Origin: Borreliella garinii | Lineage (GTDB): Bacteria > Spirochaetota > Spirochaetia > JABEVK01 | Assembly (NCBI GenBank): GCA_020720765.1 | Contig: DYOB01000013.1 | Span: 1-38,718, forward strand | DNA: 38,718 bases | Reading direction: 5' to 3' | In this document: positions 24,217-28,256 of the stretch, piece by piece | How the letters are laid out: each line of letters opens with the position of its first letter | How positions within the stretch are numbered: the first letter of the stretch is position 1 | The notes under the pieces: generated by a model | Told to the model about the DNA's origin: nothing | The model's input: the letters and a program-made list of their open reading frames with translations, nothing else | The model's database searches: none | Program-made: the position numbers and the translations under genes

Positions 24217-25155
24217 ATGCGTAAGAATTATGTAGTTTTGTTTTTTGTGCTGTTAGCATTTGTTGCTTGTGATCAGCGAATAACCCGCTCGGAGCTAAAA
24301 CTGGGGCCTGTTGAACTTCCCCAAACCGCAGACGGCGCCGGTGGAATACCCGATCCCTCGGCAGAGTATGGAATCTTAGCGGATATGGACGGGGACGGAG
24401 TTGAGGAATGGGTCCTCGTGTTTTTCGAGGGAACCCAAGAGATTATTGACCACTACGCCATAGTTCTCTATACAAAAAAAGACGGTGGCTATGTCCGTTC
24501 CGACTGGCTGGACAGTCTGGATCCGCTGATGCCAGCTTATTTTAAGGAATTGACACCCGATCTGCCGCCGAATCCTGAAAACCTGCCTGAATCCTTAAAG
24601 TATTTCCCTTACCCGCGCGGACAGGATTGGAAAGGGGGAGCACTCAACCTTTGGAATGCCAACCCAGCTTCTGCGTTGCCATTAGCACAAGTTGATAAAA
24701 AACCCGGCTTTGAGGTTCTGATACCTATGACGGGCTTCGATCAATGGCGCATTACCTTTCTCAGCCTTTCTAAAGGACAGCTTCAGATTATCGGGGATGT
24801 GGAAGGACTTGAATTTTCTGGTGAGTTTGGCGGAAGCACTGTATGGACAGGGAGAAAAACCGGGGGTGCTGGACTTCCTGTTTCTGAATCCCAGTGGTAT
24901 ACCGAGTACAGGCTCGACGAAACTGGTCTGTTGAAAAGCGTTGAACCGCTTTCACCCGATGTACAAAAGGTTTTGTTTGACTTGAAGAAATCAGTACTTG
25001 AGAAAACCCGGAAGTTCAGTGCCCTGGAAGAACTTGCCTGGTTTCACAAGTTATACCTGGGAGTGGTTCCTCAGGAACTCCTTATTGAATGGAGCCTTCT
25101 TGTGGATGGTCTAGACCAAGAGAAGCTCTTGGTACTTTCCGGAAGCTTGCAATAA
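24217..25155 (+). CDS. Unassigned lipoprotein with DxDxDG motif
   Basis: The 312-residue predicted lipoprotein has a lipobox FVAC (Cys18 from ATG 24217). AGGAG (24207-24211) is five bases upstream, so this ATG was preferred over GTG 24211 or ATG 24214. The segment LADMDGDGVEEWVLVFFEG carries an Asp-rich calcium-binding-like loop as in FG-GAP/dockerin repeats; the rest has beta-strand character and a helical C-terminus. The function is unknown. It follows the VWA lipoprotein by eight bases, suggesting they act together at the envelope. The next gene appears to start 67 bases inside its end. Confidence 0.75.
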   Translation: MRKNYVVLFFVLLAFVACDQRITRSELKLGPVELPQTADGAGGIPDPSAEYGILADMDGDGVEEWVLVFFEGTQEIIDHYAIVLYTKKDGGYVRSDWLDSLDPLMPAYFKELTPDLPPNPENLPESLKYFPYPRGQDWKGGALNLWNANPASALPLAQVDKKPGFEVLIPMTGFDQWRITFLSLSKGQLQIIGDVEGLEFSGEFGGSTVWTGRKTGGAGLPVSESQWYTEYRLDETGLLKSVEPLSPDVQKVLFDLKKSVLEKTRKFSALEELAWFHKLYLGVVPQELLIEWSLLVDGLDQEKLLVLSGSLQ

Positions 25156-25955
25156 ATATAGACCTGGAAGAGATTCGAGCGATAAGTAAAAAAGACCTTT
25201 TGGAAAGACGTTTGGTAGAAATCGGGGAGAACCTTGAAAAGTCCGGGAAAGCTCTCGGACTTTTATCCCTTGGTTCGGTAGGGATCGAAACTACAAGGCT
25301 GGATGAGTGGAGTGACATTGATTTCTTTGCAATTGTAAAGCAGGGTGTGAAACAAGACTTCCTTGAGGAAACATCTTGGCTTGATACCAAGACTTCGCCG
25401 ATTGTTTACAAGTTTAGAAATACCGCTGACGGGTTTAAGCTTCTGTGGAAAGACGGTGTTTTCGGGGAGATGGCGATTTTTGAGCCCCATGAGCTGGATA
25501 CTATCCCCTACGCTCCCGGCCGTTTTATTTGGGCTGGAGAAGGACTAGACCACGGTGTGGCTATTCCTAAAAAACAAGGCCAGGCTCCCTGGGTGCCCGA
25601 TTCCGCAGAATGGGCGGCCAACGAGCTTATCACGTGCCTGTATGTGGGTATGTGCAGGTATCGGAGGGGGGAGAAAATTTCAGCATGGCGTTTTATCCAA
25701 ACCCTCTGTTTTGATCGGTTTCAGGAAATAATCGCCTTGACCGAGACTCCGCACGCAGGTGTTTACCAGGATTTCTATTCGCGCGACCGCAGGTGGGAAT
25801 TCCTTTATCCAGATCTGGCGGGTTGGACTTCCAGCTTTCTAGCCGGTGTTGAAAGAACCCCGGAAGCAGCTTTGGCTTATCTCGAGTTTCTTGAAACCCG
25901 TAATTTGTCCCATCCTTCTATGGCGGAAGAAATACGTAAGCTCAGTCTTCTATAA
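25089..25955 (+). CDS. Nucleotidyltransferase-fold protein
   Basis: The 288-residue protein has a polymerase-beta-type nucleotidyltransferase core: LGSVG (61-65), then DEWSDIDFF with metal-binding Asp76 and Asp78, followed by a helical C-terminal domain (about 165-285). The layout resembles lincosamide or aminoglycoside nucleotidyltransferases (LinB-like), but the substrate cannot be told from sequence. The ATG 25089 start overlaps the previous gene by 67 bases, and AGGA lies 12 bases upstream; a later non-ATG start cannot be excluded. It is soluble and converges with the phosphodiesterase gene, with a 14-base overlap of the 3' ends. Confidence 0.75.
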   Translation: MEPSCGWSRPREALGTFRKLAINIDLEEIRAISKKDLLERRLVEIGENLEKSGKALGLLSLGSVGIETTRLDEWSDIDFFAIVKQGVKQDFLEETSWLDTKTSPIVYKFRNTADGFKLLWKDGVFGEMAIFEPHELDTIPYAPGRFIWAGEGLDHGVAIPKKQGQAPWVPDSAEWAANELITCLYVGMCRYRRGEKISAWRFIQTLCFDRFQEIIALTETPHAGVYQDFYSRDRRWEFLYPDLAGWTSSFLAGVERTPEAALAYLEFLETRNLSHPSMAEEIRKLSLL

Positions 25956-26682
25956 GTCTAACGTCGGTTCTCAGGCCCTGGGGAAGGATATCGACTACAC
26001 GGATTCCTGGAAGCCTGTGGTCCATTTTAAAGTCCACAGCGTCTGGGTCGATCTGATAGAGAAGGCTAGGAGTAAGAAGAATCGTCAACGAATTATGGCT
26101 GATCACCCTGTCCACGTGGTAATGGCCGCAGAAGAGCAAGGCACCACCGGCGTATTCGAGTATTTTCAAAAACCTCTGGGCATTTTTCAGGCCGTAATTC
26201 TTATCCATAAATCCGACACCGGTTTCCAGAGGTGAATGATGGATAAAAACCATGCGGGGAGAACGGAGTTCTCGAATCTTCTCCTGTACCCATTGAACCT
26301 GGGCCTCGCTGAGTATGCCCAAGGCTGAATCTAAAAATAAGGCCTTCTGACCCGGGAGGACCTCCGCCTCATAATACAATTCACCGTTATGGAGAAAATT
26401 TTCCAGCCCGAATACCTTTGCCAACATCGTAGAATCATCGTGGTTCCCGGGGATAACAAAGGTAGGAATCCCGGTTTTATCGACTTGAGCTTTAATATAC
26501 AAGTAGACTTCGAGGTCGGGGTCCTCCATGGAGAGGTCTCCGTTTAAAACAAGTGCTTCAGCTTTCAGTTCAACAACCATGGACAGAGCCGCTTCAAAGC
26601 GCGCCCGGATATCAATTTCCTTAGGTTTTACCTTAGCTGGACCAAGATGCGGATCTGTAATAACAACGATTCTGCCGGGCAT
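25942..26682 (-). CDS. CpdA-like metallophosphoesterase
   Basis: This 246-residue calcineurin-type phosphoesterase has the complete metal motifs: DPHLG (10-14), NGD, PGNHDD, IHHSP and FCGHYHVDR. Length and motif spacing fit class III cyclic nucleotide phosphodiesterases (CpdA-like), which hydrolyse cAMP, and an adenylate cyclase is encoded 5 kb away. A role in other phosphate-ester hydrolysis cannot be excluded. No clear ribosome-binding site precedes the ATG. It ends inside the convergent nucleotidyltransferase gene, and follows the kinase-like gene by 28 bases, last of the long leftward run. Confidence 0.82.
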   Translation of the reverse strand: MPGRIVVITDPHLGPAKVKPKEIDIRARFEAALSMVVELKAEALVLNGDLSMEDPDLEVYLYIKAQVDKTGIPTFVIPGNHDDSTMLAKVFGLENFLHNGELYYEAEVLPGQKALFLDSALGILSEAQVQWVQEKIRELRSPRMVFIHHSPLETGVGFMDKNYGLKNAQRFLKILEYAGGALLFCGHYHVDRVISHNSLTILLTPSLLYQIDPDAVDFKMDHRLPGIRVVDILPQGLRTDVRLIED

Positions 26683-26710: not shown

Positions 26711-27847
26711 TTACCAAGAAGGGCGGGTGAGAAAATCGATTTCCAGGCTTATTTCCAGGTTTTTTTTCAAAAGTTCAGCCATAGAGGTGCAAGATTTAAA
26801 GTCTCCGTTCTTGTGGTAGTGTGCGAGACCCTGTTTGAGTTCGTTGATTTTTCCAGGGGTGCTTAACTGGTCGTGTTCCAGGGTATCAAGGAGTTCCACG
26901 AGCCTGGACCAAACGCTTTTCACCCTTTTTGCCATAAGGACCCGTTCTTCCTTTTGGTACTGGCGGATATTCTCAGCGGTCAGAAGTTTCGTCACTAAAT
27001 CCACAACAGGCCGGTTTTCTTTATGGAAATGGGGAAGGTAGACCTTGATATCCCCTTCGTAGCACTGCTGGTCGAAGTCTATGGCACGAACGCGGTACTG
27101 GTCCTGGTCGAAGTCCATGGTAACGTCCACGACATAGTTGTAAGCCCGCATGTCGCCTAAGAGCCTGATAAAACACCTTTCGTTAAACTTAACAAATTCC
27201 TTAGCTAACCTCACAGGGTTGATCTTCTCGGGTTCAACATAATCCTGCATGTAAGAGTCACCAGGAATTCCGGCTATGTGTTCTTCCGCCAAGGTGTTTT
27301 CATGAACAAGGAAGTTGATACTGTTGGGACTGAGAAGATGCTCCAATTCAAGACCGTAGACCCTGCTGGCATCGGCATTTTTAATATAGAAATAGTCGTG
27401 GTTATCGTTGAATTGATTGACTACCCTGATACGGAAAGGAAATGAATTGGCAAAGTTGCAGAAATCAATCCGGTCGATAACCAAACCTTCCACGAAACTC
27501 AGATCCCCGTCGAGTTTAAGCTGGCAGTATATCTGGCAGAGTTCTTTATCGAGTTCCTGGCGGTAGGATTGGGAATAAACAATTGTATCCCAAAGGGTGT
27601 TCCTTCCAAGACTGTCCTCCAGGGGAACAGCATCCTGCCAACTCTTCAAATCTGAATAAGAAAGCGAAAATGTCGCCTCTCTTTCAAAACTTTCCAAATA
27701 CAGTTGGAGACGATGCGATACAGGAAAGGCCGGCTTTTTCCGGCTTATCTGGGCAAGCCCCTCCTGGGGATCAATGGGTGTCACAGCCTCCGCCGCAGCC
27801 TCCGCAACCTCCCGAACAGTCATGGGCGGGGGCCGTGTCGCTGACAC
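26711..27847 (-). CDS. Unassigned protein with kinase-like motifs
   Basis: The protein, 378 residues from ATG 27847, matches no family I can name. It has an order of segments that recalls a kinase fold. DYFYIKNAD (Lys156) could be strand beta3, and GLELEHLL (Glu167/169) the following helix. RLLGDMRAYNYVV (Asp232, Asn237) resembles a catalytic loop with the D-x4-N spacing, and RVRAIDFDQQ (257-259) resembles the metal-binding DFG/DFD. No signal peptide or membrane segment is seen. The true start is uncertain (ATG 27847, ATG 27823 or GTG 27784), because the gene overlaps the slyD end by up to 77 bases. Confidence 0.7.
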   Translation of the reverse strand: MSATRPPPMTVREVAEAAAEAVTPIDPQEGLAQISRKKPAFPVSHRLQLYLESFEREATFSLSYSDLKSWQDAVPLEDSLGRNTLWDTIVYSQSYRQELDKELCQIYCQLKLDGDLSFVEGLVIDRIDFCNFANSFPFRIRVVNQFNDNHDYFYIKNADASRVYGLELEHLLSPNSINFLVHENTLAEEHIAGIPGDSYMQDYVEPEKINPVRLAKEFVKFNERCFIRLLGDMRAYNYVVDVTMDFDQDQYRVRAIDFDQQCYEGDIKVYLPHFHKENRPVVDLVTKLLTAENIRQYQKEERVLMAKRVKSVWSRLVELLDTLEHDQLSTPGKINELKQGLAHYHKNGDFKSCTSMAELLKKNLEISLEIDFLTRPSW

Positions 27848-28256
27848 TCAGTAAGGAACAATCGAAATGAAGGGGGACACCTGCTAAAGGATGGTTTGCA
27901 TCAACCGTGATCACCTCACCATTGACTTCTGAAATGTAGGCATCGAGCCATTTGCTGTCGAACTGTACTTGAACTCGATCACCCACCTCGGCCTTTTTTA
28001 AAGAAAGCTCTTTTAGGTTGGTAACTTTTATTAGAGTCTCGTCTTTCTGCCCGTAGGCTTGTTCAGGGGGAATGACGAACACCAGGTTTTCACCCTCTTC
28101 GTGGCCTTCGAGGTGAATATCCAAACCCTCGATAACTTCACCAACACCAAGTTGGAAACTTAAAGGGCCGCTATGGGAGGAACTCCCGAGCAAAGTACCG
28201 TCAGGAGAGGTAAAATGGTAATCCAGGGTTACAAATTTCTCTTTTATTGCAGTCAT
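27771..28256 (-). CDS. slyD: SlyD-type FKBP peptidyl-prolyl isomerase
   Basis: The 161-residue protein is a SlyD-like FKBP with an inserted chaperone (IF) domain. It begins with VTLDYHFTSPDG, has the LGVGEVIEGLDIHLEGHEEGE segment, and ends in a Cys/His-rich tail (HDCSGGCGGCGGGCDTH) that should bind nickel or zinc. SlyD isomerises Xaa-Pro bonds and assists metal handling and folding. It lies 51 bases after the Wzi-like gene, with no clear terminator in between. The next gene overlaps its end, in another frame, by up to 77 bases. Confidence 0.93.
   Translation of the reverse strand: MTAIKEKFVTLDYHFTSPDGTLLGSSSHSGPLSFQLGVGEVIEGLDIHLEGHEEGENLVFVIPPEQAYGQKDETLIKVTNLKELSLKKAEVGDRVQVQFDSKWLDAYISEVNGEVITVDANHPLAGVPLHFDCSLLSVSDTAPAHDCSGGCGGCGGGCDTH

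Follow-up and report, generated by a model that had tools for sequence, protein, structure and literature searches.

The protein encoded at positions 26711 to 27847, reverse strand, of the window (the whole 38,718-nucleotide stretch of DNA analysed here) belongs, with a probability that we put at about three in four, to an undescribed family of the protein kinase-like (PKL) superfamily, and it would act as a cytosolic, ATP- and Mg-dependent phosphotransferase; this reading rests on a modelled fold together with the pattern of sequence conservation. The genes concerned are the following.

27771..28256, reverse strand: slyD, FKBP-type peptidyl-prolyl isomerase, upstream neighbour (Pfam FKBP_C, E 1.6e-15)
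26711..27847, reverse strand: gene of the kinase-fold protein as its longest ORF (378 codons, 378 amino acids, GTG start); the conserved part is residues 34-378
27782..27784, reverse strand: most likely start codon, a GTG at residue 22 of the longest ORF, which would leave a 14-base overlap with slyD
25942..26682, reverse strand: calcineurin-like metallophosphoesterase, downstream, 28 bases past the kinase-fold gene (Pfam Metallophos, E 3.4e-13)

Judged by sequence comparison, the ORF 26711-27847 encodes a real protein under strong purifying selection: over residues 34-375, differences from a congener (L002) amount to about 14% at the non-synonymous and about 91% (saturated) at the synonymous level. 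Residues 1-33 of the longest ORF, which lie mostly over the Gly/Cys-rich tail of slyD in another frame, are unconserved in the same comparison (ps 0.45, pn 0.37). The GTG at 27784 is also a GTG in the congener, the N-terminus that results from it matches the length of the relatives, and it is probably the true start. The sequence-only reading had given the same coordinates for the ORF and for slyD and the same numbering for K156, E167/E169, D232, N237 and D257/D259, all of which we recovered, and the overlap with slyD in another frame does exist; its figure of up to 77 bases is the upper bound set by the longest ORF, because a start at GTG 27784 would reduce the overlap to about 14 bases.

An AlphaFold2 model of the window protein (pLDDT 87, pTM 0.84, from 61 sequences) has its strands and helices in the order of a kinase. 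It comprises beta1 (122-130), beta2 (138-144), beta3 (149-157, with K156) and alphaC (160-172, with E167 and E169), followed by beta4 (179-182), beta5 (185-189), alphaD (196-202), alphaE (211-228), the GDMRAYN segment (231-237), beta7 (238-244), beta8 (249-255), the IDFD segment (256-259) and further helices. When the full model was compared with the PDB by Foldseek, all 50 of the 50 matches listed were kinase-fold proteins (best E 2e-4), and a viral library returned mostly viral kinases. A Hymenobacter relative, trimmed to its core and modelled separately (pLDDT 84) but drawing on the same set of relatives as the full-length model, gave 235 PDB matches at E<=1e-3, of which the 50 listed were all kinases, with a best E of 1.6e-5 and TM-scores of up to 0.49 among the matches listed. 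The kinase fold that had been proposed from the letters alone is thus borne out by both models, in the two-lobed form and standard order; since the E-values and TM-scores are modest, the predicted structure is a divergent version of that fold.

The positions on which catalysis by such a fold would depend are all occupied, and the relevant segments are these.

27437..27457, reverse strand: beta1-beta2 turn NFANSFP, residues 131-137, consensus xFGNSxP, at the place of the glycine-rich loop
27380..27382, reverse strand: Lys156, end of beta3 (149-157), predicted ATP-phosphate lysine, 61/61
27341..27349, reverse strand: Glu167-Leu-Glu169 in alphaC (160-172), predicted salt-bridge partner of Lys156, both Glu 61/61
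27137..27157, reverse strand: predicted catalytic loop G231-D232-M-R-A-Y-N237 between alphaE and beta7, D232 and N237 61/61
27071..27082, reverse strand: I256-D257-F258-D259 after beta8, at the DFG place, D257 predicted Mg2+ ligand; D257, F258 and D259 61/61

Invariance was counted in an alignment of 61 family members, in which the relatives' identity to the window protein ranges from 47 to 78%, and K156, D159, R162, E167, E169, E188, H190, D232, N237, D257, F258, D259, Q260, Q261, Y263 and E264 were the same in every one of them. For the residues named at the outset, such constancy goes far beyond what chance would give. The beta1-beta2 loop has G at position 133 in 56 members and A in the other five. 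The catalytic lysine, the alphaC glutamate, the loop aspartate and asparagine and the aspartate at the DFG position are therefore all present in the 61 aligned members, and the layout first noticed in the window (Lys156, Glu167-169, Asp232 and Asn237, Asp257 and Asp259) is common to all of these. Because all canonical catalytic positions are filled, an active enzyme is more likely than a pseudokinase.

Which branch of the superfamily this protein resembles most is a separate matter. With the PKL superfamily as a whole (PMC1821047; KINtaro, PMC10870513) it shares the predicted bilobal fold, the order of secondary structure and the Lys / alphaC Glu / D-x4-N / DF motif, but it differs in that its sequence matches no known family significantly, and it has features of its own, namely an N-terminal extension (residues 34-121), a helical C-terminus and IDFD-QQxYEG in place of DFG. 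No sequence-level match was found to any known kinase family among those searched, and profile-profile comparison with sets of HipA, APH and PI3K/PI4K sequences gave no significant score. When the trimmed core was compared by hhalign, GDMRxYN was aligned with the catalytic loop in each of the HipA, APH and PI3K sets, again at non-significant scores; this alignment agrees with a kinase fold, yet it cannot pick a branch of the superfamily. The affiliation with APH- or HipA-type kinases suggested by the sequence-only reading did not hold up, the profile comparisons being non-significant (hhalign P 0.14-0.62). APH and choline kinase-like proteins (PF01636; no Pfam match, hhalign P 0.27 and 0.14) share an H/G-D-x4-N motif and an ID loop in the same register, but the GD of the family is preceded by LL, whereas that of APH is preceded by H. 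HipA (PF07804, HipA_C; no Pfam match, hhalign P 0.49 and 0.62) has a D-x4-N loop that aligns on GDMRxYN in the trimmed-core comparison, but its Lys-Glu spacing is 19 (K216, E235), as against 11 or 13 residues here, a shortness that had been remarked on at the outset. The PI3/PI4-kinases (PF00454) share with the family a K-x2-[DE]-x2-R segment after beta3, GD-x4-N and I-D-F, as well as a small distance from the lysine to the alphaC acid (K-x2-[DE]-D-L-R-Q-[DE] in PI3/PI4 kinases), and among the full-model matches listed none had a higher query TM than Vps34 (2x6j), at 0.37. PI3K, however, has GDRH and HIDFG where the family has GDMR and AIDFD, there was no Pfam match to PF00454, and the hhalign P values of 0.79 and 0.64 come from a small PI3K/PI4K set of five sequences, of which the PI3K-gamma one is identical to PDB chains. 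A search for bacterial PF00454 homologues that would make a better set found none in 61 Bacteroidota genomes.

The family itself is tight, because a search gives either a very strong match (E below 1e-110) or none. Identity to the window protein is 78-80% within the genus, about 62% within the taxonomic family and about 50-57% in relatives from Bacteroidota and Verrucomicrobiota. Carriers made up 53 of 198 sampled genomes of Bacteroidota (the phylum of Hymenobacter), 36 of 195 of Verrucomicrobiota (the phylum of Opitutia) and, in a patchy distribution, 16 of 198 in the window's own class (Spirochaetota); a draw from the window's phylum, for which the one protein served as query, had 3 carriers among 149. 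Nearly all carriers have one copy per genome, and no relatives were found in the plasmids, phages or viral contigs searched. In the tree, the window protein joins its own taxonomic family and then two Spirochaetaceae. The copy of a further spirochaete from the window's class (L086, genome G135) falls inside Bacteroidota, which suggests horizontal transfer, although its branch is long. A locus labelled Saccharospirillaceae, Gammaproteobacteria (L040, CATLPG010000010.1), comes from a genome (G156) that was drawn with Hymenobacter in one phylum sample, and the kinase-fold protein it encodes clusters with Bacteroidota; since sample and grouping both contradict the label, this is probably a mislabelled bin. 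Two further loci (L090, G234; L093, G352) have one in-frame TAA inside the listed match, which may lie at the end of the gene.

The genes around the kinase-fold gene are lineage-specific: clustering of the neighbours at 86 relatives' loci revealed no conserved partner; as to a HipB-type antitoxin next door, the analysis covered the conservation of neighbours in general. Several neighbours are housekeeping genes by sequence (topoisomerase subunit A, dnaX, RNase R, lepA). The earlier proposal that SlyD assists the folding of the kinase or works together with it draws on the same strand, the small overlap and an adjacency that recurs in the congener, but among 117 loci (some of them duplicates) slyD adjoins the gene in the window and this congener only, that is, in one genus, and three other members of the window's taxonomic family have an acyltransferase, a decarboxylase, a histidine kinase and an MFS transporter as neighbours. 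SlyD is thus not a conserved neighbour, and a SlyD-dependent kinase is the least probable of the alternatives that we considered. The downstream metallophosphoesterase was discarded as a partner because the two genes are not adjacent even in the congener, nor do they lie side by side in any other relative. Near the kinase-fold gene, a gene for a TPMT-like methyltransferase is found repeatedly in Verrucomicrobiota (L043, L050, L053, L058, L061) and Flavobacteriales (L009, L015), as a divergent neighbour in Puniceicoccaceae and further off in Flavobacteriales; a partnership was judged weak because of these differing distances. The window also holds, at 25089-25955 on the forward strand, an ORF of 288 aa that matched neither Pfam nor NCBIfam and whose text GSVGIETTRLDEWSDIDFFAIV resembles, by eye only, a nucleotidyltransferase motif (GS...D-x-D).

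Other explanations concern the fold and the reaction. TM-scores below 0.5 and the non-significant profile matches to known kinase families could mean that AlphaFold2 and Foldseek were misled and that the protein does not have a kinase fold, but two models of different members and different lengths show the same order of strands and helices, all PDB matches listed have the kinase fold, and the invariant motifs sit at the right places of the model, so we regard this as very improbable. The short lysine-glutamate spacing might instead indicate a pseudokinase, a scaffold or sensor that binds nucleotide without catalysis; the five canonical positions (K, E, D, N, D) are, however, retained in 61 of 61 members, which is unusual for a pseudokinase, and such a role seems very improbable. 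Unlikely, though less so than either of these, is a kinase-fold enzyme with another nucleotide-dependent reaction such as AMPylation (SelO), glutamylation (SidJ) or RNA/nucleotide transfer (NiRAN): PKL proteins are known to perform such reactions (PMC10870513), and near the active site there are invariant residues peculiar to the family (Q260, Q261, Y263, E264), but its complete set of normal phosphotransfer residues is what one would expect of a kinase rather than of a repurposed pseudokinase.

For the phosphotransferase that we prefer, we infer, beside the computed fold, residue invariance and distribution, an activity, a role for each residue and a single fixed substrate. K156 of beta3, held by E167 or E169 of alphaC, would position the ATP phosphates, D232 would be the catalytic aspartate, and N237 and D257 would hold Mg2+. 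The phosphate would then pass to a substrate bound by the helical C-terminus and by the family-specific invariant residues, which are N144, N147, D148 and D151 before beta3 and Q260, Q261, Y263 and E264 after IDFD. No membrane-length hydrophobic stretch was found in the protein. Rather than many proteins, the substrate may be a single fixed one, either a metabolite or one macromolecule; a fixed housekeeping substrate is favoured by the single copy in nearly all carriers, the identity of about 50% across phyla, the strong purifying selection and the absence from plasmids and phages. Taken together, the single copy, the very high conservation, the want of a conserved neighbour and the absence from those mobile elements that were searched speak for a function in housekeeping or metabolism more than for a toxin or resistance kinase.

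As to novelty, the statement that no such family has been described holds for the libraries searched, since Pfam, NCBIfam, PADLOC and PHROGs gave no credible match and a Pfam scan of the 61 members gave none at the level scanned. PDB sequence searches returned only weak, unconvincing matches (the best, with E 0.012, was an unrelated chain of 124 residues), and in the papers searched we found neither a description of the family nor the strings IDFDQQ and LLGDMR. Of the 72 PKL families in KINtaro, 32 have no association with the superfamily in established databases (PMC10870513), and the present family may have been catalogued earlier. The chances are about even that this is an unrecognised, catalytically competent PKL family that performs a phosphorylation or other nucleotide-transfer step performed by no known kinase family. 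Bacterial kinomes would gain a family with a complete predicted kinase active site, carried by roughly one fifth to one quarter of the sampled Bacteroidota and Verrucomicrobiota genomes, which annotation based on the libraries searched would leave unnamed, and its carriers among named strains (Hymenobacter, Coraliomargarita) open the way to knock-outs and substrate searches.
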